A stretch of DNA of 33,185 bases from an uncultured Synechococcaceae cyanobacterium. GTDB taxonomy: Bacteria; Cyanobacteriota; Cyanobacteriia; PCC-6307; Cyanobiaceae. Positions 6,007-30,021 of the stretch are shown here, one piece after another (positions within the stretch are counted from its first letter, which is position 1; each line of letters starts with the position of its first letter). The notes under the pieces are model-generated. The model had not been told where the DNA came from and did not search any database. It saw nothing but the letters and a program-made list of their open reading frames with translations. The stretch spans positions 1 to 33,185 of the forward strand of contig CACBAW010000007.1 of assembly GCA_902537275.1 (NCBI GenBank), read 5' to 3'. The translations under genes and the position numbers were made by a program.

Positions 6007-7821
6007 ATGAACCTAAAGGCTAAAATAAATAAAATTAACTTTAAAAAAAATATTATATTTGATTTATTCAGTTATATTCCTAATAAAAGAAAGGTAACCC
6101 TATTTTTACTTCTATTTTTGATGTTGTGTAATGGATTAAGTGAATTATTTAATATAAGAATGTTTCAAGAATTTTTGTTGGTTATATCAAATAAAAATAA
6201 TCTTGAAAACAATTTCTTATTAAATAATTTATTAAATGAATTCAATATAAATTCTGAAAAAAATTTATTATTATTTACTGGTTTTTTTTATATATTTTCT
6301 TTAATAATATCAACTTTTCTAAAAACTTATATTATTTATTTAACTGCCAAAATTTCATCCTTAATAGCCAAAGACTTTAGTTATTTAGCAATAAAAAATT
6401 ATTTATACCAAAATTACGAGTACCATATAACTGAAAATAGTAATAAGATAATTTCAATAATAAATGTGCAAGTAGAATACGCTAAAAGTTACGTTCTGAA
6501 TTTAATAGAATTTATTTTCCAAGCAATTACTATATCTTTTCTTATAGTTTTCTTGATTAGATTCAATTTTAACTTGGCATTTACTTTTTCTTCTTTAATT
6601 TTAATTACATATTTCACAATTTCCTTAGTCCTAGACAAAAGAATAAAAAACAATGGCAAAATAATTTCAAAAAGTATTAAAGCAAAAAATAAAAGTCTTT
6701 TAGAGTCAATAGGACATATTAAGGAATTAATTTTAACTCAAAATCAAAATCTATATCTTTCAAGATTCATGAAATTTGAAACAAAATTTAGATTAAAAAA
6801 TGCTGAAAATATTTTTCTTCCAAGATTGCCAAGATATTTTGTTGAGTCAATTGCCTTAACAATTTTTATTTCCATAAGTTTAGCCAATGCTCTTAATAAC
6901 AATTCATTTTTAACAAACTTTATTGCAATTTTGGGTACATTTGCTTTAGCTTCTCAGAAATTATTATCTTCAGTTCAAGCCTCTTTTGCTAATTGGTCAA
7001 GTATGTTAGGTTCAAATGAATCATTAAAAAATGTTCTAGAGTTATTAAAATTAGATAAAAAAGAATATGAGAATAAATATTCAAATGATAAGAAAAGATC
7101 AATATTTAATTTTAAAAATTCAATAACTTTTTCTTCAGTCTCATATAAATATAATCAAAACTCCTTTTATAGTATAAAGGATATTAATTTAACAATAGTT
7201 AAAGGAGAAAAGATAGGAATAATTGGAAAAACAGGTTCTGGAAAAACTACGTTTTTAAATTTATTAATTAGTCTTCTAACTCCTACTTCTGGAAAAATTA
7301 TTATTGATAAAAAAGACCTAAGGAGCAAAAATAATATATATAAATATAGAAGTTTAGTTTCATATGTACCTCAAAATATTTACTTGTCTGACAATACCAT
7401 AAAAAATAATATCGCTTTTGGTATTCAAGAAAATCAGATTGATCAAAATAAATTGGAAAAAGTTATAAAAATTTCTCAATTAAAAAATTGGATTGATAGT
7501 CTTCCTTTGAAAGAAAATACATACGTTGGAGAGAATGGATTAAGTATTAGTGGTGGACAAAGACAAAGATTAGCTATTGCAAGATCAATATACTCTAAAA
7601 GTCAAATTCTCATTCTTGATGAAGCTACTAGTGCAATGGACCAAAAAACTGAAGAAATTATTCTCAATTCTTTAGATAAAATAGATAAAAATATAACTTT
7701 GATTATGGTAGCTCATAGGTTAAATACTTTAGTTAATTGTGATAGAGTAATTGAACTTGAAAATGGCTTAATAAAAGATATTTATAATAAGAATGAATTC
7801 TTAAAAAAACTTATTAATTAA
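6007..7821 (+). CDS. ABC transporter, fused permease/ATP-binding (MsbA/PglK-type half transporter)
   Basis: 604 aa; N-terminal TM domain; Walker A IGIIGKTGSGKTTF, signature LSISGGQRQRLAIARSI, Walker B ILILDEATSAMD, H-loop VAHRL. Confidence 0.92.
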   Translation: MNLKAKINKINFKKNIIFDLFSYIPNKRKVTLFLLLFLMLCNGLSELFNIRMFQEFLLVISNKNNLENNFLLNNLLNEFNINSEKNLLLFTGFFYIFSLIISTFLKTYIIYLTAKISSLIAKDFSYLAIKNYLYQNYEYHITENSNKIISIINVQVEYAKSYVLNLIEFIFQAITISFLIVFLIRFNFNLAFTFSSLILITYFTISLVLDKRIKNNGKIISKSIKAKNKSLLESIGHIKELILTQNQNLYLSRFMKFETKFRLKNAENIFLPRLPRYFVESIALTIFISISLANALNNNSFLTNFIAILGTFALASQKLLSSVQASFANWSSMLGSNESLKNVLELLKLDKKEYENKYSNDKKRSIFNFKNSITFSSVSYKYNQNSFYSIKDINLTIVKGEKIGIIGKTGSGKTTFLNLLISLLTPTSGKIIIDKKDLRSKNNIYKYRSLVSYVPQNIYLSDNTIKNNIAFGIQENQIDQNKLEKVIKISQLKNWIDSLPLKENTYVGENGLSISGGQRQRLAIARSIYSKSQILILDEATSAMDQKTEEIILNSLDKIDKNITLIMVAHRLNTLVNCDRVIELENGLIKDIYNKNEFLKKLIN

Positions 7822-7840
7822 AACTAAGATTTATTTGCAA

Positions 7841-8554
7841 ATGCCTGAATTAAATTCTATTTGTATGATACCAGCAAGAATTGGATCACAAAGATTTAAA
7901 AAGAAAAACTTGGCAATTATAGGAAATAAATCAATTTTAGAAATGGGAATTGATAGAGCACTAGAAGCAAATATTTTCAGTAAAGTGGTTGTTAATGGAG
8001 ATGATGAAGTATTTGAAGAGATTGCAAAAAAAAAAGGTGTAGAATTTTTTAAGAGAGATAAGTATCTTGGATCAAGTGATACAAAATCAGATGATGTAGT
8101 TTATGATTTTATAATTAAAAATAGTTGTAAAAATATAATTTGGTTTAATGCCATAGCTCCTTTACAAACTTTAGAGGATATTAGAGGTTTCAGTAATGAT
8201 TTATTTAAAAAAAATATCGATGCTCTCTTTGCGACGAAAAAAGAATACTTGCAAGCTATTTACCATGATTTACCTTTGAATTTTTCAGAACATGAAAAAT
8301 TTCCTAAAACTCAGGATCTTAATCCTGTAGAACTATTTGTCCCATCTTTAATGGGTTGGAAGTCAAAAGTATTTATTAATCAATATAAAAAAAAGAAACA
8401 TGCATTTTTTTGCGGAAATATAAGCTACTTCCCAGTCTCAAATCTTTCCTCATTAGTGATAAAAAATGAAGACGATTTCCGCCTTATTCGATCTGTAGTT
8501 GAGGGCATTTCATCATATGATAAGAATATAAATTACTATAAATATTCAAAATGA
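7841..8554 (+). CDS. Acylneuraminate/CMP-sugar cytidylyltransferase-family protein (NeuA-like)
   Basis: ORF 7835..8554 (TTG 7835 or ATG 7841); MIPARIGSQRFKKKNLAIIGNKSILEMGIDRALEA, KVVVNGDDEVFEEIAKKKGVEFFKRDKYLGSSDTKSDDVVYDFI. Confidence 0.82.
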   Translation: MPELNSICMIPARIGSQRFKKKNLAIIGNKSILEMGIDRALEANIFSKVVVNGDDEVFEEIAKKKGVEFFKRDKYLGSSDTKSDDVVYDFIIKNSCKNIIWFNAIAPLQTLEDIRGFSNDLFKKNIDALFATKKEYLQAIYHDLPLNFSEHEKFPKTQDLNPVELFVPSLMGWKSKVFINQYKKKKHAFFCGNISYFPVSNLSSLVIKNEDDFRLIRSVVEGISSYDKNINYYKYSK

Positions 8555-9555
8555 TTTACATTGATTTTGAAACATTAAAAATCAAAACTAAGGAATTACT
8601 TTTAAAAAATGGTGCAAATCAATTTTCTGCTGAATCAGTAGCTATAGGTTTATCTGAAACTTCATTAAGGGGAGTTGACTCACATGGTATAAGACTTCTA
8701 CCTCATTATATTAATGCTCTTAAAAATGGTCGAATTAATGGTAATCCCAAATTCAAAGTTATAAATACTTTTCCTTCATTTATAGGCCTAGATGGAGATA
8801 ATGGTTTTGGTCATGCTTGTGGATTTAAAAGTGTTGATTTAGGAATGGAGTTGGCCAACAAATATGGAATTGGTGCAATTTCAGTTTTTAATTCAAGTCA
8901 TCCGGGAGCAATGGCTTCTTTTTCACTAAAGGCTGCTCGCAACAATCTTTGCTGTTTTGGTTTTACTCATGCTGACTCATTAATTCAAAGTTTTAATTCA
9001 AAAAATACTTTTTTTGGAACTAATCCAATTTGTTTTGCAGCTCCAAGGGCTAATGAGGAACCTTTTTGTGTTGATATGGCTCCTACTTACGCGCCCTGGA
9101 ACAAGATCTTAGACTATAAAGAAAAGGGATTAAGCTTAGAAAATAATATTGCAATAGATATCAATGGAGATAATACATGCAACCCTAATGAAGCCAAAGC
9201 ACTTTTACCTATAGCAGGATACAAAGGTTATGCATTGGCTGCATTAGTAGAAGTATTATGCGCTACTTTAAGTGGAATGAATTTTGGCCCTCATATTCCA
9301 TCTATGTACGGCTCATCGATTAGAGAATCAAGAAAACTAGGACAATTTTATATTTTGATGAGACCTGATGTTAATGTTGATTATGAGGAATTTACTAAAG
9401 CTCTTAATTTAATGTCAGAAGAGATTAGAGGTCAGGAATCAAAAAATGATAATCCTGTTTTAGTACCTAATGATCCTCAGATTGTTGAGTCAAAGAAAAG
9501 AGCTCAATATGGAATACCTATAAGCAAAGAAATTAACGAATTAATAGCAAATTAA
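8551..9555 (+). CDS. Ldh_2-family (malate/L-lactate/YiaK-like) NAD(P)-dependent dehydrogenase
   Basis: 334 aa; SETSLRGVDSHGIRLLPHYINALKNGRINGNP, FNSSHPGAMASFSLKAA, GTNPICFAAPR, LLPIAGYKGYALAALVEVLCATLSG; ATGA overlap with the upstream gene. Confidence 0.88.
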   Translation: MIYIDFETLKIKTKELLLKNGANQFSAESVAIGLSETSLRGVDSHGIRLLPHYINALKNGRINGNPKFKVINTFPSFIGLDGDNGFGHACGFKSVDLGMELANKYGIGAISVFNSSHPGAMASFSLKAARNNLCCFGFTHADSLIQSFNSKNTFFGTNPICFAAPRANEEPFCVDMAPTYAPWNKILDYKEKGLSLENNIAIDINGDNTCNPNEAKALLPIAGYKGYALAALVEVLCATLSGMNFGPHIPSMYGSSIRESRKLGQFYILMRPDVNVDYEEFTKALNLMSEEIRGQESKNDNPVLVPNDPQIVESKKRAQYGIPISKEINELIAN

Positions 9556-9560
9556 AATTT

Positions 9561-10724
9561 ATGGAAGAAAAGTTTATTGATATTATCATTATCGGTACTG
9601 GATCTTATGTATGTGGAAAAGATAACGATGACTTTGGTACTATCCTCCCAGCATTATTTGTATATGTTCAAAAATTTAAATTTAAACTTAATATTATCAT
9701 TGCTTGCAATTCATTAAAAGGGAATCGAAAAATATCAAAAAAATTTGAAATTCTAAAATCTCTGATGAAGGTTGAAGAATTTGTCAATCTCGAATTAATT
9801 AATTGTGGAGGTAATACTGAAATATTCTTTGAAGAATTATCACTTTCATCAAATATCAAAGCCTCCATAGTAGCAGTTCCTGATCAATATCATTACTACT
9901 GGATTAAAAGTTTGCTTATAAAAAAAATACCAGTTTTAACTGTGAAACCTTTAACCTTGAATTTAAAGGATGCTATTGAGCTGAAAGATATTTCAAAAAA
10001 ATTAAACGTACCTGCATTTGTTGAGTTTCATAAGAGATATGATAGACAAATAAGATATGCAAAAGATAAATATAAATCATTAGAGTTAGGTGATTTACTT
10101 TATTCCTTTACCGAATATACTCAAAGAAAAATAATCCCCACTGAAGTTTTTAAATCTTGGTCTGATAAAACAAATATATTTTCTTATTTAGGAGTTCATT
10201 ATGTAGATGCAATCTATTACATTACAAAGTCTAAACCTAAGAAAGTTATGGCGACTGGTCAAAAAAGTTTTCTTATTTCAAAAGGAATCGATACTTTTGA
10301 TAGTATCCAATGTAACGTTAAATGGGAAACTCAAGGAGGTAAGTTTTTTACTCAGAATATAATGTGTAGTTGGGTAGAATCAAATTTTTCTACTGCAATG
10401 TCTGCTCAAAATATTAATCTTATTTTCTCTCAGGGTAGAATTAATTGTGAACAAAAAGATAGAGGTTTATCTCTTTTAAAAGATAATTGTGGAATAGAAC
10501 ACATCAATCCTGATTTTTCAAGAATGTATTCAATTGAAGATCATTTTACTTTTGAAGGCTATGGTATTGAAGCTTACATAAATTTTTTAAATTTTATAAC
10601 TAATTCAAATCGTGATGTAAATGATGAAAGATTATGCCCATTTAATGAAGGGTGCATATCAACATCAGTAATCCATGCAGCAAATCAAAGTTTAAATCAA
10701 AATTCAAAGTGGATTGATATTTAA
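9561..10724 (+). CDS. Gfo/Idh/MocA-family oxidoreductase
   Basis: 387 aa; VAVPDQYHYYWIKSLLIKKIPVLTVKPLTLNLKDAIELKDISKKLNVPAFVEFHKRYD matches the family EKP-like segment (here VKPLT), with a C-terminal substrate domain. Confidence 0.8.
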   Translation: MEEKFIDIIIIGTGSYVCGKDNDDFGTILPALFVYVQKFKFKLNIIIACNSLKGNRKISKKFEILKSLMKVEEFVNLELINCGGNTEIFFEELSLSSNIKASIVAVPDQYHYYWIKSLLIKKIPVLTVKPLTLNLKDAIELKDISKKLNVPAFVEFHKRYDRQIRYAKDKYKSLELGDLLYSFTEYTQRKIIPTEVFKSWSDKTNIFSYLGVHYVDAIYYITKSKPKKVMATGQKSFLISKGIDTFDSIQCNVKWETQGGKFFTQNIMCSWVESNFSTAMSAQNINLIFSQGRINCEQKDRGLSLLKDNCGIEHINPDFSRMYSIEDHFTFEGYGIEAYINFLNFITNSNRDVNDERLCPFNEGCISTSVIHAANQSLNQNSKWIDI

Positions 10725-10818
10725 GATTTATAAATTATCTAAAATTATAATAATGATTATAAATAAGCTTTTTTTAAATTATAATTTTTCTTGAAAGTAA
10801 AAATATTTAATAGAATAA

Positions 10819-12177
10819 ATGCAAAAATTAAAAAAGGTCTCAATAATAATAAGGACAAAAAATGAAGAAAGATGGATTGGACATTGTATCAAAAGGATTC
10901 ATACGCAAACTTACAAAAATTATGAGATTATCCTTGTAGATTCATTAAGCGAAGATAATACAGTTAATAAAGCAAAACAAAATAAAATCGATAAATTAGT
11001 AGAAATAAAAAACTATAGGCCAGGATTTGCAATTAATGAAGGAATTAGAGCCTCTACTGGAGAATTAATTGTTATGTTGTCAGCCCATTGTTTAGCAATT
11101 AACAATAATTGGTTAAAAGATCTAGTAGGCGCTATTGATTCTGATGAAAATTTGGCTGGAGTTTATGGTAAACAAGTGCCAATGGATTTTTCAAGTGCTG
11201 AAGATAAAAGAGATTTATTAATAGTTTTTGGCGAAGATGAGAGAATACAAGTCAAAGATAGTTTTTTTCACAATGCAAATTCAATAATCAAAAGAGATGT
11301 TTGGTCAAAAATTAATTTTGATGAGCAAGTCACTAATATTGAAGATCGAATCTGGGCAAGGGATGTAATAAAAAAAGGATTTAAATTAAAATATATTCCT
11401 AAAGGATCGGTTTATCATTATCATGGAATTCACCAAACTGGAAATATTAAAAGACTTGAGGGGGTTACAAAAGTTATTGAGAATTTCGAATCAAAAAATA
11501 ATCCATGTCTGATAAATCCAAAAGAATTTGATATCTGTGCAGTTATTCCAATAAGGGGAGAACCATTAAAGTTTGGTGAAAAAAATCAATTAGAATTAGC
11601 CGCCGAATCAATTTTTTCAAGTACGTATATAAATAGATTTTTTGTTACTACTGATTCTCAAATTACCCTGGAAATTGCAAAAAAATTAGGCTTCGAAGTA
11701 TTGAGCCTCAGGGATAAAACCCTCGCGGATCAAAAAACGACTATTGAAGAAGTACAAAACTGGCATCTTGAACAATTAGAGAAGCAATTGAATTATTTAC
11801 CTGATGTTATTGTTCATGCTGAAGTAACCTTTCCATATAGGCCTAAAAAACTTATAGATAATTTAATTGAGCTATTTGCAAAAACAGGTGCTGATACAGT
11901 TTTACCTGCAAAATTTGAATATACTTGGGCTTGGAAAGAGATTGAGGATGATACCTTAATTAGGCTTGATGATGGAGATATACCAAGAGAATATAAAAAA
12001 TCACTATTACTGGCATCACATGGTTTAGGGTGCGTTACTCACAGTGAAATTTTAAGGAATAAAACTTTAGTTGGTAAAAAGATTAAACTTCTGCCAATAG
12101 ATAATCAAATAAATTTTATAGAAGCAAGAACAAAGGAACAGTGTGAATTTTATTCCTCAAAGATATTTGTTAAATAA
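10819..12177 (+). CDS. Bifunctional fusion: GT2 glycosyltransferase (N) + CMP-sugar cytidylyltransferase-like domain (C)
   Basis: 452 aa, single frame; N-term VSIIIRTKNEERWIGHCIKRIHTQTYKNYEIILVDSLSEDNT ... IEDRIWARDV (GT2); from about residue 233 ICAVIPIRGEPLKFGEKNQLELAAESIFSSTYINRFFVTTDSQITLEIAKKLGFEVLSLRDKTLADQKTTIEEV (cytidylyltransferase-like). Confidence 0.82.
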   Translation: MQKLKKVSIIIRTKNEERWIGHCIKRIHTQTYKNYEIILVDSLSEDNTVNKAKQNKIDKLVEIKNYRPGFAINEGIRASTGELIVMLSAHCLAINNNWLKDLVGAIDSDENLAGVYGKQVPMDFSSAEDKRDLLIVFGEDERIQVKDSFFHNANSIIKRDVWSKINFDEQVTNIEDRIWARDVIKKGFKLKYIPKGSVYHYHGIHQTGNIKRLEGVTKVIENFESKNNPCLINPKEFDICAVIPIRGEPLKFGEKNQLELAAESIFSSTYINRFFVTTDSQITLEIAKKLGFEVLSLRDKTLADQKTTIEEVQNWHLEQLEKQLNYLPDVIVHAEVTFPYRPKKLIDNLIELFAKTGADTVLPAKFEYTWAWKEIEDDTLIRLDDGDIPREYKKSLLLASHGLGCVTHSEILRNKTLVGKKIKLLPIDNQINFIEARTKEQCEFYSSKIFVK

Positions 12178-13916
12178 TGTTCAAAAAGGATTTATACATT
12201 TTATTAAATAATAATGAATCATATAAGCTTCCTAAAAAAGCAAAATATTTATTTTGTCGCTCCAGAATATTTGCAAAATCGTTAAATCAAAATTCATACA
12301 AAATAATCATTCCTGATCCAAAAAAAACTTCAAGAGAATCATTTAAACTCTTAAAAAATGAGGAAAAATTATCTAAGATCATAATCAATGAAACTGAAAA
12401 TTTATTAAATAATTCTGAAATAAATTCTTATGAAGAACTCTTAAAGCCTTATCTATCTTTAAGAATTTCTAGTTACCTTTATTTAGATTCAATAATACCT
12501 ATTTTTGAAAAATATTTTATTTATAAAGATCGTAAATGGAAAAGTTTTTATTCAAGAACTCAATTAATTGTTGAAATTGAAGAAAAATTATCTTTAGAGA
12601 TTGATTCTATACATAAGGGTTTGAAAATTTTCACGGACAATAATAATTCTTTAGTGTTGAAATTTTTAGGTTTTCTTCAAAAAATAATTTTAAAAAATCG
12701 TCTTAAAGGATTAAAAGAATTATTTATCCTTACTGATAAGAAAGGTTATTTTTTTGATGATTTATTATCATCCCTTAATTCTAAGAATAAAGATATCATT
12801 TATTTGTATCATGGTAACAATTCTCTCAAATATGTTAGTTTACTGATCTCACTTTTAATTTCTTTTTTTAAGAGAAAAAAATTAATCAATGGGATTTTTT
12901 TGGTTTCTAAAAATTATAAATTGAATATTAATTATCAGATTCATATTAAAGATAAAATAAAAAATAGTAATTTAGTCGATAAACAGTATGCTGAAAAATT
13001 ATCTAAAGATATTAATCAATATCTATCAAATACAAATTCATATTTGAAATACGTAAAAGATATTTTTGAAAATATTAAGATTGATATAAGATTAATTTCT
13101 CATTCTAAAAGATTTGCAAAAATTTATGCCTTATCTGAAGCCTTAGAAGATTTGTGCCATAAAAATTATTTAATAAGTCATGGATCTCATACTGATCAAA
13201 AGGGTAAATTTTATGATGAAATTGCAGCAGATAATTTAGCCATCGGACTTATTTACTCAAACAACAAGAATACGATCTTATGTAGTCAATCTTATTTTGC
13301 AGATGAATATTTACGAAGTAAAAATAAGAAATTTATCAAGATACAACCCTTACAATCAATAAATTTAGCAAAATTTACCAAACCTACTGAAATTGATTCT
13401 TTGAAAATTAAAATTTTGCATGCATGTACAATTAAGCAAATGGGATGTAGACGATATTTATATCACTCTTCTCTTGAATACGTACAAAGCCTTTTAAATA
13501 TTTGCAAAAAATTAAAACCAATAAGAAAAGATATCAGATTTTTGGTGAGGGTTAGACCTGTTCAAAACGAAATATCTACCTATTACCTTAAAGAATATCT
13601 TTATGAATATCTTGATTTTGTTGAGTTCTCGAATACCAAGTCATTTATTGAGGAATTATTAAGTATTGATTGTTTATTAGCATTATCTTCTACAACTCTC
13701 GAACAAGCAATTAACAATGGCATTCCAGCTATGAGTATTGGAGAAACTGGTTATGATCATTTTAAAAAGTATAAAAATGAAAATATACCAATTACATACA
13801 AAAATTATAAGCAATTGTCTAAGATAGAAGAACTACTGGAAAGAAAATTTACTCTAATTTCAAATCCAGTAAGAAAAAATATTTATGATTTGCAAGAAAT
13901 ATTATTCAATAATTAA
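12177..13916 (+). CDS. GT-B-like surface-carbohydrate transferase of unclear family (possibly Kdo/sialyl-type transferase)
   Basis: 579 aa; C-terminal half YLISHGSHTDQKGKFYDEIAADNLAIGLIYSNNKNTILCSQSYFADEYL ... RVRPVQ ... FVEFSNTKSFIEELLSIDCLLALSSTTLEQAINNGIPAMSIGETGYDHF resembles GT-B donor domains; TAATG overlap with upstream gene. Family assignment uncertain. Confidence 0.5.
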   Translation: MFKKDLYILLNNNESYKLPKKAKYLFCRSRIFAKSLNQNSYKIIIPDPKKTSRESFKLLKNEEKLSKIIINETENLLNNSEINSYEELLKPYLSLRISSYLYLDSIIPIFEKYFIYKDRKWKSFYSRTQLIVEIEEKLSLEIDSIHKGLKIFTDNNNSLVLKFLGFLQKIILKNRLKGLKELFILTDKKGYFFDDLLSSLNSKNKDIIYLYHGNNSLKYVSLLISLLISFFKRKKLINGIFLVSKNYKLNINYQIHIKDKIKNSNLVDKQYAEKLSKDINQYLSNTNSYLKYVKDIFENIKIDIRLISHSKRFAKIYALSEALEDLCHKNYLISHGSHTDQKGKFYDEIAADNLAIGLIYSNNKNTILCSQSYFADEYLRSKNKKFIKIQPLQSINLAKFTKPTEIDSLKIKILHACTIKQMGCRRYLYHSSLEYVQSLLNICKKLKPIRKDIRFLVRVRPVQNEISTYYLKEYLYEYLDFVEFSNTKSFIEELLSIDCLLALSSTTLEQAINNGIPAMSIGETGYDHFKKYKNENIPITYKNYKQLSKIEELLERKFTLISNPVRKNIYDLQEILFNN

Positions 13917-14998
13917 TTTTTTTTTTCAATATTTAAATTCATATATTCAAAAATTTGATTAATACTAAATTCACGCATTTTAGTTTTTTTCTCTAAGAAT
14001 AAAGAGTACCATCGAGCAGTATTTTCTATTGTCTTCTCAAATGTTAGTTTTGGCAGCCAATTTAGTTCGGAAAATGCTTTGTCACAGTTTAACTTTAACA
14101 ATTTAGATTCTTTATGAGTTGGATTTTTAGCAGGCTTAATTTCGAAGTTTGCCTTTGGAAAGTAATTAATTAAATTAAGGACTAATTCTTCAACTGATCT
14201 ATTTTGCTCAGCAAAAGGGCCAAAATTATATGCCTCGCCGCTAATGATGCTTTCTTCATTTAAAGCTGAAGCTAAATTAAGATACCCTGATAGAGGTTCT
14301 AATACATGTTGCCAAGGTCTAGTAGATAGTGGATTCCTCAATATCACCTTTTCACCATTTGCCCAAGATTTAATACAATCAGGAATTATTCTATTTGGAG
14401 CCCAATCGCCACCTCCAATTACGTTCCCAGCTCTAGCGATACCTATTTTTATATTTTTACTATTACTAAAGAAAGATCTATAGTAAGAAGATATTACGAT
14501 TTCTGCACATCCTTTTGAAGCACTATATGGATCTGCGCCACCAAGTTGATCTGACTCTTTATAACCCCAAACCCATTCCTTATTATCATAAACTTTGTCA
14601 CTAGTTATTAAAACGGCGATACATTGATTTTTTAATTGCCTAAGCCCCTCCATTAAATTTATTGTACCTACAGTATTTGTGAGATAGGTCTCTAAAGTTT
14701 CTTCATATGACTTTTTTACAATTGGTTGAGCGGCAAGATGAAATAAAAACTGAGGTTCAATTTCTTTTATTGTTTTAACTAATAATTTTGAATCTTGTAT
14801 ATTGATCCTTATATCAGTTATTTCGTCTGATAATTTTATAGTTTCGTAATGCGATGGTTTGGTTGGTATATTGTTTGAAATTCCATAAATCTTGGCTCCC
14901 ATCATTGATAACCATAACGTTAACCATGATCCTTTGAAGCCAGTATGGCCTGTAATAAGAATCTTTTTATTTTTAAATATATCTTTATCTAAATCCAA
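13913..14998 (-). CDS. rfbG: CDP-glucose 4,6-dehydratase
   Basis: 361 aa; KILITGHTGFKGSWLTLWLSMMGAKIYGIS, LAAQPIVKKSYEETLETYLTNTVGTINLMEGLRQ, ITSDKVYDNKEWVWGYKESDQLGGADPYSASKGCAEI, RAGNVIGGGDWAPNRIIPD. Confidence 0.95.
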   Translation of the reverse strand: MDLDKDIFKNKKILITGHTGFKGSWLTLWLSMMGAKIYGISNNIPTKPSHYETIKLSDEITDIRINIQDSKLLVKTIKEIEPQFLFHLAAQPIVKKSYEETLETYLTNTVGTINLMEGLRQLKNQCIAVLITSDKVYDNKEWVWGYKESDQLGGADPYSASKGCAEIVISSYYRSFFSNSKNIKIGIARAGNVIGGGDWAPNRIIPDCIKSWANGEKVILRNPLSTRPWQHVLEPLSGYLNLASALNEESIISGEAYNFGPFAEQNRSVEELVLNLINYFPKANFEIKPAKNPTHKESKLLKLNCDKAFSELNWLPKLTFEKTIENTARWYSLFLEKKTKMREFSINQIFEYMNLNIEKKN

Positions 14999-15098: not shown

Positions 15099-15827
15099 TT
15101 GAGTATTTGTATTCTTATACCTGCGAGGATGGGGAGCACAAGATTCCCTGGTAAACCACTTGCACCAATAAAGGGCATTCCAATGGTTGTATATTGTGCC
15201 AAAAATGCTATTAAAACTAATTTACCTGTTTATGTTTGCACTGACTCTAAAGAAATTAGAGCAGTATGTGACTTGTACGATATCAAATCAATCCTAACTT
15301 CAGATTGTTCGACAGGTACTGATAGAGTCGCTTCCGCAATGGAAAAACTTGATTATGATTACGTAATTAATTTACAAGGCGATGAACCACTTGTAGATAG
15401 TTTGATTTTAGATAAATTCATTGCAAAAATGAAAATATTAGAAAAAAGTCATAATTCTATTTTAAATTGTGTTTGTCCTGTAGATTCATCTGAAGCATTT
15501 GATCCTAATAATGTAAAGTGCGCTTTGATAAACAAAAAGCAAAATATCCAATATTTTTCAAGAAAACCACTTTTAAATAATACTGAAAAGGATCAAGATT
15601 CTTTTTTTAAACAACTTGGATTATATGGGATGTCAAAAAAAACATTATTTGAATTTAATAAGTTACCTCAAGGTAATCTTGAAAAAGCAGAAAAGGTTGA
15701 ACTTATGCGATGGTTAGAAAATAAAAAAGAGATTAAATGTTGTGTTGTTAATAATAAAACTATATCTGTTGATACCCCTCAAGATTTAGTTGAATTGCTT
15801 GATTATATTAATAAACCCCATAAGTAG
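15099..15827 (+). CDS. kdsB: 3-deoxy-manno-octulosonate cytidylyltransferase (CMP-Kdo synthetase)
   Basis: 242 aa, TTG start; ILIPARMGSTRFPGKPLAPIKGIPMV, VYVCTDSKEI, STGTDRVASAMEKLDYDYVINLQGDEPLV. Confidence 0.9.
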   Translation: MSICILIPARMGSTRFPGKPLAPIKGIPMVVYCAKNAIKTNLPVYVCTDSKEIRAVCDLYDIKSILTSDCSTGTDRVASAMEKLDYDYVINLQGDEPLVDSLILDKFIAKMKILEKSHNSILNCVCPVDSSEAFDPNNVKCALINKKQNIQYFSRKPLLNNTEKDQDSFFKQLGLYGMSKKTLFEFNKLPQGNLEKAEKVELMRWLENKKEIKCCVVNNKTISVDTPQDLVELLDYINKPHK

Positions 15828-16469
15828 TTGTCTGAAATAAAAACGGTATTATTTGATTTTGACGGAGTTTTAATAGACTCCATAGATGTTATGAGATATG
15901 CCTGGGATTCTGTTAAAAAAGAATTTAATATTAAGAGTAATTTTGAAGAATATAGAAATTATATTGGACTACCTTTTTTAAATATCCTTGAGAAATTAGA
16001 TATAGATTTGGAACTTCGACTAGCAATTAAATCTCATTACTCATTAATAACTAGCAAGGAAAAAGATAAGATAAAATTAAATCCGTATACAATTATTTTA
16101 TTAAATTGGCTGCATCACAATTCGATTAACGTTGGCCTTGTAACTTCAAAAGATAAATTAAGAACTCAAGAATTAGTAAATCATTTTCAATTAAATATTG
16201 ATCTCAAAGTGACGCCTGAACTAACAAATAAAGGTAAACCTGATCCAGAACCAATTATATTTGCGACTAAAACTTTTGCCTGTGAAACAGAAAATACTCT
16301 TTTCGTAGGTGACATGTATTCTGATTTGCTCACAGCAAAAAGAGCAAAATGTAATTATTTACATTATGTTCAAGGTTATCAATATTTAGATCATATTTCT
16401 TATGGAGGATCAATATCATCTCTACTGGAAATAAAAGAATACATATATTATTTTGGGAAGAGAAATTAA
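15828..16469 (+). CDS. HAD-superfamily hydrolase (phosphoglycolate phosphatase-like)
   Basis: 213 aa, TTG start abutting the kdsB stop; TVLFDFDGVLIDS motif I, VGLVTSKDKLRTQELV motif II region, KGKPDPEPI, LFVGDMYSDLLTAK motif IV. Confidence 0.85.
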   Translation: MSEIKTVLFDFDGVLIDSIDVMRYAWDSVKKEFNIKSNFEEYRNYIGLPFLNILEKLDIDLELRLAIKSHYSLITSKEKDKIKLNPYTIILLNWLHHNSINVGLVTSKDKLRTQELVNHFQLNIDLKVTPELTNKGKPDPEPIIFATKTFACETENTLFVGDMYSDLLTAKRAKCNYLHYVQGYQYLDHISYGGSISSLLEIKEYIYYFGKRN

Positions 16470-16966: not shown

Positions 16967-17728
16967 ATGAAAGTTGTAGTACTTGCTGGAGGATACGGAA
17001 CCAGGTTATCAGAATATACAACAAGAATACCTAAACCAATGGTTGAAATTGGAGGTAAACCAATACTTGAACATATAATGAATATTTATAGTAAATATTC
17101 GCATGATGAATTTTATATCGCGTTAGGTTATAAATCTGAATTGATAAAAGATTATTTTTTAAATTATAAAATTTTGAATTCCGATTTTAACATTAATATA
17201 AAGACAGGAAATGTTAAAGCTTTTAAAGATTATTCGAAAAGCTGGAGTATAAATTTAATTAATACAGGTCATAATTCAATGACTGGAGGCAGATTATTAA
17301 GATTAAAGAGTCATCTTAAGGAAACATTCTTTTTTACATATGGCGATGCAGTCAGTGATATAAATATAGATGAATTACTTGAATATCATAAATATAAAAA
17401 TAAATTGGTTACTATTACGGCTGTTAGACCGCCAGCTAGATTTGGACTGTTAAATTTGGATAATAATGATATAGTCAAAAGCTTTGAGGAAAAGCCACAA
17501 CTTAAGCAGGGTTGGATAAACGGTGGTTTCTTTGTTATGGAGCCTGAGTTTTTAGATTTAATAAAAAATGATCAATCTATACTTGAAAAAAGCCCTCTTG
17601 AACTTGTGGCTAAAAAAGGGGAATTAGCGGCTTTTAAACATGATGGATTTTGGCAATGTATGGACACAAAAAGAGATAAAGACAACTTAGATAATTTAAT
17701 AAAAATGAACAATGCGCCTTGGTTATAA
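16967..17728 (+). CDS. rfbF: Glucose-1-phosphate cytidylyltransferase
   Basis: 253 aa; MKVVVLAGGYGTRLSEYTTRIPKPMVEIGGKPILEHIMNIYSKYSHDEFYIALGYKSELIKDYFLNY, TYGDAVSDINIDELLEYH, QGWINGGFFVMEPEF. Confidence 0.95.
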   Translation: MKVVVLAGGYGTRLSEYTTRIPKPMVEIGGKPILEHIMNIYSKYSHDEFYIALGYKSELIKDYFLNYKILNSDFNINIKTGNVKAFKDYSKSWSINLINTGHNSMTGGRLLRLKSHLKETFFFTYGDAVSDINIDELLEYHKYKNKLVTITAVRPPARFGLLNLDNNDIVKSFEEKPQLKQGWINGGFFVMEPEFLDLIKNDQSILEKSPLELVAKKGELAAFKHDGFWQCMDTKRDKDNLDNLIKMNNAPWL

Positions 17729-27703: not shown

Positions 27704-28912
27704 TTAAATATTATTTGAATTTGATAGTAAAAAGTAATCTTTTATACTCTCTAGAACAAAATTAATATCACTTATTTCCATGTCGTAGAATAGTGGAAGT
27801 GTTAAAGCTTCTCTGTAGTAGCTAAATGATTCTGGAAATAATTTATGGTCATTTGAGTTGTTTTTATTTTGATAATACGGGTGAAGTATAATTGGAATAT
27901 AGTGTACTTGAGTAATGATCCCTTTATTTCTTAAGTAAACCATTAACTCATTTCTTTGAATAGATAATTTATCAAAGTTTATTCTGACAGGAAAAATATG
28001 ATTCGCGTTCTTAGATATTAAGCTGCTTTGTGCTGGTTTAATGCTTTTATTATTTTTTAGTTGTTTTTTGTAAGAGGAAACTAACAATTCCCGTTTACTA
28101 ATAAATTTATCTAATTTTTTTAATTGGGATAAACCCAATGCACATTGAATATCGGTTATACGATAATGGAACCCAAGACTTTGCATTTCATAGTACCAAA
28201 GATTTTTTTTATCATTGGTGTAAGCAGCATCCTTGTTCACTAAAAAATCATCATTTTTGTTTATTCCATGACTTCTTAAACGTAATAATTTTTTGTATAT
28301 TTTTTCATTGTTAGTTGTAATCATTCCGCCTTCTCCTGCAGTAATGCTTTTAACAGGATGTAATGAGAAAACAGTAGCATCAGAAAAATTAGCCGAACCA
28401 ATCTTTGATCCATCAGAGTATTCTGAACCTAATGCATGAGCTGCGTCCTCGATAATATGAAAATTGAACTTTTCCGCTAAGTAGCTTAACCTTTTCATGT
28501 CAATAGCTAAACCACCAAAATGTACAGGTATAACGACCTTAAAAATTTCACCTGAAATTAATTTTGCTTCTAATTTGTCGATTGAAATATTTAAAGTTGA
28601 TTCCTCTATATCGATGAACTGCACTTTGGCTCCAATAAAACTTGCACAATTAGCAGATGAAACAAAACTAATATTTGATGTTACAGCAATATCATTTTTT
28701 TCTAAATTTAGTGCAATGCATGAAATATGAAGCCCTGCTGTACAACTAGAGACTGCCACTGCATAAGAAGCCCCAACATAGTTAGCAAATTCTTTTTCAA
28801 ATTCATAAATAAGAGGTCCTTGAGTCAGATTCCCGCCATCTCTAAGAATTTGAACCACAGAATTTATATCATCTTCATCTAGATGATGTCTGCCATATGG
28901 TAGAAATCTCAT
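27704..28912 (-). CDS. DegT/DnrJ/EryC1/StrS aminotransferase, PseC-like
   Basis: 402 aa; MRFLPYGRHHLDEDDINSVVQILRDGGNLTQGPLIYEFEKEFANYVGASYAVAVSSCTAGLHI, FHIIEDAAHALGSEYSDGSKIG, ATVFSLHPVKSITAGEGGMITTN. Confidence 0.9.
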   Translation of the reverse strand: MRFLPYGRHHLDEDDINSVVQILRDGGNLTQGPLIYEFEKEFANYVGASYAVAVSSCTAGLHISCIALNLEKNDIAVTSNISFVSSANCASFIGAKVQFIDIEESTLNISIDKLEAKLISGEIFKVVIPVHFGGLAIDMKRLSYLAEKFNFHIIEDAAHALGSEYSDGSKIGSANFSDATVFSLHPVKSITAGEGGMITTNNEKIYKKLLRLRSHGINKNDDFLVNKDAAYTNDKKNLWYYEMQSLGFHYRITDIQCALGLSQLKKLDKFISKRELLVSSYKKQLKNNKSIKPAQSSLISKNANHIFPVRINFDKLSIQRNELMVYLRNKGIITQVHYIPIILHPYYQNKNNSNDHKLFPESFSYYREALTLPLFYDMEISDINFVLESIKDYFLLSNSNNI

Positions 28913-29016: not shown

Positions 29017-30021
29017 ATGGATTATAAAGAATTAAAGGATAAAACCTTATTAATAACTGGTGGAACAGGATCATTTGGAGGATATATGTTAAGAAAAGTA
29101 TCCTCGTTAGGCTTAAAGAAAATAAAAATATTTAGCAGAGATGAAAAAAAACAGCATGACATGAGAATCAATCTTAATATGGATAATCTGGAATTTATAT
29201 TAGGTGATGTGAGAGACATTCAATCCGTAATGGCAGCATGCAATGATACAGATATTATTTTCCATGCAGCAGCTCTGAAACAAGTTCCTTCTTGTGAGTT
29301 TTTCCCTATGGAGGCTATTTCGACTAATGTAATTGGAACATCAAATTTATTAGAAGCTGCAATTCAAAATAAAGTTAAGTCTGTAGTATGTTTGAGTACG
29401 GACAAGGCTGTTCACCCTGTAAATGCTATGGGAATGACTAAAGCCTTGATGGAAAAAATTGCATTAGCAAAAGCAAGATCCTCTAAAGAAACAATTATTA
29501 CCATAACAAGATACGGTAATGTTATTTCTTCGAGAGGTTCCGTAATCCCTCTATTTCTTGAACAAATCAGAAAAAACACGCCCATTACAATTACGGATCC
29601 AGAAATGACTAGATTTATTATGAGTTTAGATGAAGCTATAGACCTTGTTCTTTATGCATTAAGTTATGGAGAAAAAGGGGACATTTATGTAAAGAAATCA
29701 CCTGCTTGCAATATTGGTCAAATATCAAAAGTGATTAAGAATTTATTAGACAAAGATAATCACCAAGAAGTAATAATTGGCCCAAGACATGGAGAAAAGT
29801 TTCATGAGGTTTTAATAAGTAAAGAAGAATTATCAAGAGCAACAGAGAAAAACGGATTTTATAAAATAATTCCTGATGGAAGAAATCTAGAATATAGTAA
29901 ATATGAAAATCACGGTGATAAAGATATAAATAAATATTCTGAATATAATTCAAAAGACTCAGAACAGCTAAATTATCAATCTCTTAAGAATATATTGAGA
30001 GATTATGTTCTTGAAAAGTAA
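29017..30021 (+). CDS. UDP-GlcNAc 4,6-dehydratase/5-epimerase, CapE/FnlA/WbjB-like
   Basis: 334 aa; LLITGGTGSFGGYMLRK, IKIFSRDEKKQHDMRINL, HAAALKQVPSCEFFPMEAISTNVIGTSNLLEAAI, CLSTDKAVHPVNAMGMTKALMEK; C-terminal EYNSKDSEQLNYQSLKNIL resembles the FnlA/CapE tail. Confidence 0.87.
   Translation: MDYKELKDKTLLITGGTGSFGGYMLRKVSSLGLKKIKIFSRDEKKQHDMRINLNMDNLEFILGDVRDIQSVMAACNDTDIIFHAAALKQVPSCEFFPMEAISTNVIGTSNLLEAAIQNKVKSVVCLSTDKAVHPVNAMGMTKALMEKIALAKARSSKETIITITRYGNVISSRGSVIPLFLEQIRKNTPITITDPEMTRFIMSLDEAIDLVLYALSYGEKGDIYVKKSPACNIGQISKVIKNLLDKDNHQEVIIGPRHGEKFHEVLISKEELSRATEKNGFYKIIPDGRNLEYSKYENHGDKDINKYSEYNSKDSEQLNYQSLKNILRDYVLEK

Follow-up and report, generated by a model that had tools for sequence, protein, structure and literature searches.

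A conserved five-gene block of Prochlorococcus with cytidylyltransferase and oxidoreductase genes, and its possible role in forming a CMP-activated sugar acid

The window analyzed here comprises the whole of contig C7 (33,185 bases), part of a 971-kb genome that is 58% complete and that its relatives identify as Prochlorococcus. Five closely spaced open reading frames (ORFs) lie on one strand at 7835-13916, overlapping slightly or separated by 5 to 94 bases, and encode a CTP_transf_3 cytidylyltransferase of 239 aa, an Ldh_2-family oxidoreductase, a Gfo/Idh/MocA-family oxidoreductase (Gfo), a 452-aa fusion of a GT2 domain with a cytidylyltransferase-like domain, and a 579-aa protein. The locus raises the question of which sugar such a block could make. 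To our knowledge, the known sugars activated with cytidine monophosphate (CMP) are ulosonic acids, mostly derived from NeuB/KdsA-type synthases, and no such gene adjoins the block. An initial annotation of the window had described a tight same-strand run of five genes and had named the families of the first four; the ORF positions confirm the former and Pfam matches above the curated cut-offs the latter. The five genes very probably form one functional unit that is separate from the pseudaminic acid route of the genome. The block is a real, conserved and mobile cassette, by which an unusual acidic sugar for a surface glycan is probably made, activated and attached.

Conservation of the block and the pseudaminic acid genes

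The block occurs with identical gene order in four of 266 Prochlorococcus genomes, the window's own included. The other carriers are G073 (locus L008), which is the metagenome-assembled genome Prochlorococcus AH-321-C14 and belongs to the same genus as the window's genome, G541 (L061) and G529 (L062). Close relatives of the 239-aa protein (53-58%) were found in three further genomes of this set, all of which carry the whole block. Because the gene order is the same in these three, the block is regarded as a real unit, and chance adjacency of the five genes is ruled out; the gene coupling proposed at the outset thus withstood the conserved-linkage test. Identity to the window in the three orthologous blocks is 52-58% for the CTP_transf_3 protein, 65-70% for Ldh_2, 48-51% for Gfo, 60-61% for the GT2 fusion and 30-31% for the 579-aa protein. 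The flanks of the blocks are of three kinds, those of the window, of G541 and of the pair G073/G529.

Among 386 genomes sampled across the phylum, the Ldh_2 search (E 1e-60) gave one further match, and the cytidylyltransferase search gave six matching genomes, all from one distant family (29-34% identity); the five-gene block is absent from the three loci inspected in these six genomes. No matches were obtained from 297 genomes around an actinobacterial center, a search run without a positive control. A scan of genome contigs with a single protein gave at least one close relative. No description of this gene combination, as an already characterized pathway or otherwise, was found in the searchable open-access literature.

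The lack of a NeuB/KdsA/PseI-type synthase, which the initial annotation had pointed out, holds for the window but not for the genome. PseI is encoded on contig C31 (369.8 bits; NCBIfam cut-off 340.25), as is a PseG-like protein below its cut-off, and a genuine PseF is encoded on contig C50 (249.4 bits; cut-off 205.7). With these genes in the genome, the missing synthase is not by itself a sign of an unusual pathway. The genes for PseC, PseI, PseF and the PseB-like and PseG-like proteins do not form one operon; they are spread over three contigs and lie outside the block. Since the genome has its own PseF and PseI, the block would be redundant for the activation of pseudaminic acid; this function was rejected, and PseF is probably the dedicated activator of pseudaminic acid. 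A survey of the other carriers, whose genomes are likewise incomplete, gave a sialic-type NeuB and NeuC in G073, together with a cytidylyltransferase-like ORF of their own on that contig, a high-scoring but untyped NeuB family gene in G529, and no detectable NeuB in G541 (82% complete). A NeuB family gene is present in about half of the Prochlorococcus genomes, so that its presence alone is a weak marker.

Enzymes encoded by the block

The 239-aa protein (start codon TTG, or ATG two codons later) gave a profile match to the CMP-Neu5Ac synthetase 1qwj (E 6e-29). Its N-terminal CTP-binding motif IPARxGSxRxxxKN, here IPARIGSQRFKKKN, is intact in all four orthologues. The protein resembles the synthetases PseF, NeuA and KdsB in its family, in this motif and in its profile match to NeuA structures, but it falls well short of the cut-offs for PseF and KdsB (58.6 bits against 205.7 for the PseF model TIGR03584), has no dedicated synthase beside it, and carries Val-Ile-Lys (VIK) in all four orthologues at the position of the C-terminal metal-binding Asp-x-Asp of NeuA. 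The earlier description of a NeuA-like activator is therefore upheld by the family and the CTP motif, from which cytidylyltransferase activity would be expected, but not by the metal site. The nearest tree neighbor of the window's protein, a copy on the cyanophage-like contig L085, has IVK at this site, and the PseF of the genome has DID. VIK also occurs in proteins of Leisingera and Sinorhizobium fredii and in one phage protein (L084); it is not present in the proteins of Paenibacillus and G044 or in that of the phage trio described below. As the latter has EID, VIK was dropped as a hallmark of the trio of cytidylyltransferase, Ldh_2 and Gfo genes. In the tree, KdsB sequences group with the block's cytidylyltransferase through a long, weakly supported branch, which was not used as evidence, and an additional CTP_transf_3 match on contig C10 is GlmU.

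The nearest named NCBIfam relatives of the Ldh_2 protein are AllD and the sulfolactate and malate dehydrogenases. All equivalog scores lie below cut-off, that of the ureidoglycolate dehydrogenase model included (229; cut-off 356), and the protein falls into no functionally named subfamily (AllD, sulfolactate dehydrogenase, YiaK). Known Ldh_2 members use 2-hydroxy or 2-keto acids or their imines, and we know of no member that acts on hydroxyls without a neighboring carboxylate; a 2-hydroxy or 2-keto acid is expected as the substrate here. The Gfo protein belongs to an uncharacterized subfamily that also includes the phage-trio proteins, with the motifs VKPLT and GVHYVD conserved in the window and in the phages. 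An AlphaFold2 model of the Gfo protein, with a mean predicted local distance difference test (pLDDT) of 50, was too poor and was not used.

Neither Pfam nor NCBIfam gave a match for the 579-aa protein. Its AlphaFold2 model, built from five homologues, is GT-B-like (mean pLDDT 72; predicted template modeling score 0.74), and Foldseek returned GT-B folds at moderate TM-scores (0.3-0.5), among them non-hydrolyzing UDP-GlcNAc 2-epimerases and a CDP-bound polysialyltransferase (PDB 5wcn). The predicted fold is common to the polysialyltransferase (structural match E 1e-5, 16% identity), but the epimerases score better. The GT-B-like transferase suggested at first is in agreement with this predicted fold. 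By profile search the family is present in five of 200 Prochlorococcus genomes, namely the four with the block and G071. In the latter, a related cytidylyltransferase (32%) is encoded about 3 kb away, and neither Ldh_2 nor Gfo of the block's kind accompanies it. The case of G071 associates the protein with the cytidylyltransferase and not with the oxidoreductases. All five genomes that carry the family also have this CTP_transf_3 or a relative of it (hypergeometric p ~8e-9, with the profile built from those same five), and from this co-occurrence and the predicted fold the protein is a likely CMP-sugar transferase.

By profile match (E 6e-10), the cytidylyltransferase-like domain in the 452-aa fusion is genuinely related to the 239-aa family. 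It has lost the GS of the motif and has a deletion after it, and Arg is replaced by Lys in two orthologues. As the catalytic motif is lost in all four orthologues, a second cytidylyltransferase activity was judged unlikely, and the degenerate domain is probably not a second activator.

A possible synthase-free route and its alternatives

The general idea that a CMP-activated sugar acid is built, activated and transferred by the block was retained from the initial annotation, with the corrections given above for the fusion and the metal site. In the preferred reading, Gfo would oxidize C1 of an aldose to give an aldonic acid and Ldh_2, judged by the known substrates of its family, would oxidize the C2 hydroxyl beside the carboxylate to give a 2-ulosonic acid. 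The 239-aa enzyme would then form the CMP-sugar and the 579-aa GT-B protein would transfer it. The GT2 domain of the fusion may add a neighboring sugar, with the degenerate domain probably serving for binding or docking. That the block is a transferable surface-glycan cassette whose product, a 2-keto sugar acid activated with CMP, arises without an aldol synthase of the NeuB/KdsA type is proposed tentatively, at slightly less than even confidence; the oxidation chemistry, with Gfo acting before Ldh_2, is put forward with the same reserve and much less firmly than the five-gene unit. A hexulosonic acid, which is in keeping with this proposal, is reported for the Escherichia coli K3 capsule in a title among the references of PMC10433991.

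Gene sets with a similar content occur in Leisingera, S. fredii and Paenibacillus, where CTP_transf_3 is combined with a SIS isomerase, an inositol-monophosphatase-type phosphatase, a D-2-hydroxyacid dehydrogenase and Gfo (L016:8511-13612, L017:5760-10654 and L018:9971-14883; the families of some members were read from annotation or sequence). The gene order differs in all three, two include a methyltransferase, and no published description of these SIS cassettes was found. They share with the block a related cytidylyltransferase (29-31% identical, VIK in two of three), Gfo and a 2-hydroxyacid dehydrogenase, but theirs is a D-2-hydroxyacid dehydrogenase not homologous to Ldh_2, their Gfo is of another subfamily, and they have their own isomerase and phosphatase. 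Judged by gene content, the latter two would release a free aldose, Gfo would oxidize its C1 and the 2-hydroxyacid dehydrogenase its C2, giving a 2-ulosonic acid; Ldh_2 would take over the C2 step in the window's block. By this analogy the cassettes may fill the same chemical roles with unrelated enzymes and an obvious source of free aldose, which speaks for the proposed route.

The trio was also found in phages when IMG/VR was scanned with Ldh_2 and Gfo alignments. Several contigs (L074-L079), of two close types, carry Gfo, Ldh_2 and CTP_transf_3 in this order, which differs from that in the window (CTP_transf_3, Ldh_2, Gfo); two of them stop within Ldh_2. T4-like DNA polymerase and clamp-loader genes are present on these contigs as well. 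Identity to the window is 33-34% for Gfo, whose phage copies match both the N- and the C-terminal domains of the family, 41-45% for Ldh_2 and 29% for the cytidylyltransferase. The latter stands in a different tree lineage from the window's, so at least two separate events have brought the oxidoreductase pair together with a cytidylyltransferase; this repeated joining argues for a shared pathway. Contig L085 (2747-4625) carries CTP_transf_3 (57%) and Gfo (54%) between tail-fiber genes. Named phage records contain no copy of the block's cytidylyltransferase, and the Ldh_2 matches among them are unannotated or host-like records. That cyanophages carry lipopolysaccharide genes is generally known (PMC9602691). 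In another phage lineage, Ldh_2 (37-39%) follows genes for a thiamine pyrophosphate (TPP)-type enzyme, a cupin-like and a HAD-like protein (L080:8001-9035, L081:7995-9035, L091:7899-8936), with no Gfo or CTP_transf_3 near it.

A broader proposal is slightly more doubtful: sugars would be oxidized to 2-keto sugar acids without a synthase, first by Gfo and next by Ldh_2 or a D-2-hydroxyacid dehydrogenase, and would become CMP-ulosonic acids through cytidylyltransferases of which some are altered at the metal site, and phages would carry the same enzymes and thereby change the host surface. Several points weigh against the oxidation route proposed for the block. Both metal-site aspartates of the 239-aa protein are replaced, the block contains no source of free aldose, and L085 has no adjacent Ldh_2. 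The Gfo subfamily has no characterized close relative and gives weak scores to aldose dehydrogenases. The cytidylyltransferases of Prochlorococcus and of the SIS cassettes are not joined with tree support, and their Gfo subfamilies differ. The roles assigned to the enzymes of the block are read from gene content and sequence.

The oxidoreductases might instead tailor a nonulosonic acid whose synthesis is encoded elsewhere in the genome, oxidizing and re-reducing one of its carbons, with the 239-aa enzyme activating the epimer. The prophage-borne epaA-epaB of Acinetobacter baumannii, found beside a full Pse pathway, convert pseudaminic to 8-epipseudaminic acid by means of a CTP_transf_3-aldo-keto reductase fusion and a short-chain dehydrogenase/reductase (SDR) (PMC12053666), and with the ela and aci genes for nonulosonic acid epimerization they exemplify a sugar-modifying unit of a CTP_transf_3 domain and two oxidoreductases (PMC12053666, PMC5595891). 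The block has this composition, Pse genes are present in the window's genome, and the trio is also phage-borne. However, the Acinetobacter enzymes are an aldo-keto reductase and an SDR acting on pseudaminic (Pse) or legionaminic (Leg) acid, whereas the block has Ldh_2 and Gfo and, as far as these incomplete genomes show, no single parent acid: that acid would vary with the carrier, from the PseI product in the window's genome to the sialic type in G073, and G541 has only the negative result given above. The known action of Ldh_2 on hydroxyls with a neighboring carboxylate does not fit either, and tailoring is considered unlikely.

An aldolase of the HpcH/HpaI or DRE-TIM type encoded elsewhere could supply the skeleton of a 3-deoxy 2-keto acid, with the oxidoreductases adjusting it and the trio thus making or modifying its CMP-activated form. 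In the distant relatives within the phylum, CTP_transf_3 has HpcH/HpaI, AroB-like and TPP enzyme genes nearby, or DRE-TIM aldolase-like and HAD phosphatase genes next to it (L071:4877-9872, L072:7346-9603, L073:8408-10243), which suggests, in line with the preferred reading, that enzymes in this part of the family have 2-keto acids not made by NeuB as their substrates. A set similar to the SIS cassettes in Prochlorococcus G044 (L011:2394-11610) combines KdsB-like, HpcH/HpaI aldolase, inositol monophosphatase, SIS, CTP_transf_3, FAA hydrolase and 2-hydroxyacid dehydrogenase genes and is possibly another NeuB-free sugar-acid route. Such neighbors of relatives of the 239-aa enzyme favor an aldolase, but none is encoded in or adjoining the four blocks or the phage trio, and this origin is quite improbable. 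The loss of both aspartates would also fit a 239-aa protein that is no longer a cytidylyltransferase, in a block that carries out conventional sugar oxidation and glycosyl transfer, using a different nucleotide. This is very improbable, as the CTP motif is wholly kept in four orthologues and the GT-B family goes with cytidylyltransferases of this kind.

If the oxidation route is real and common to Prochlorococcus and phages, it would widen bacterial surface-sugar chemistry, account for cytidylyltransferase genes that lack a synthase, and direct attention to surface sugars that may be recognized or altered by cyanophages.

Features of the window and neighboring genes

The features of the window are summarized in Table 1. 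The ABC exporter gene ends 13 bases 5' of the 239-aa gene and is probably in the same transcription unit; its product is possibly a flippase. In G541, but in neither G073 nor G529, the gene directly 5' of the block encodes a related exporter (35%).

Table 1. Location and family assignment of genes in the window
Feature	Coordinates	Strand	Length	Basis
ABC exporter related to PglK/MsbA	6007..7821	+		ABC_tran over cut-off; best NCBIfam model PglK, 274.6 bits, below its cut-off
CTP_transf_3 cytidylyltransferase, probable CMP-sugar synthetase	7835..8554	+	239 aa	Pfam 60.7 bits (cut-off 22.6)
Ldh_2-family oxidoreductase	8551..9555	+	334 aa	PF02615, 299.8 bits (gathering score 38.8)
Gfo/Idh/MocA-family oxidoreductase (GFO_IDH_MocA)	9561..10724	+	387 aa	N-terminal Rossmann domain PF01408, 34.8 bits (gathering score 24)
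GT2 domain fused to degenerate cytidylyltransferase-like domain	10819..12177	+	452 aa	Glycos_transf_2, 79.1 bits; CTP_transf_3, 27.2 bits
Predicted GT-B glycosyltransferase, candidate CMP-sugar transferase	12177..13916	+	579 aa	Fold prediction and co-occurrence
PseC, not part of the block	27704..28912	-		TIGR03588, 458.6 bits (cut-off 423.5)
PseB/FnlA-like dehydratase, not part of the block	29017..30021	+		TIGR04130, 421 bits (cut-off 730); TIGR03589, 297 bits (cut-off 407.75)

The block is followed by genes for a KdsB-type cytidylyltransferase and a HAD phosphatase (15099-16469), the former scoring above the cut-off of one NCBIfam subfamily. RfbG and RfbF of the CDP-glucose pathway, each above its cut-off, are encoded on opposite strands at 13913-14998 and 16967-17728 and flank the KdsB-like gene.

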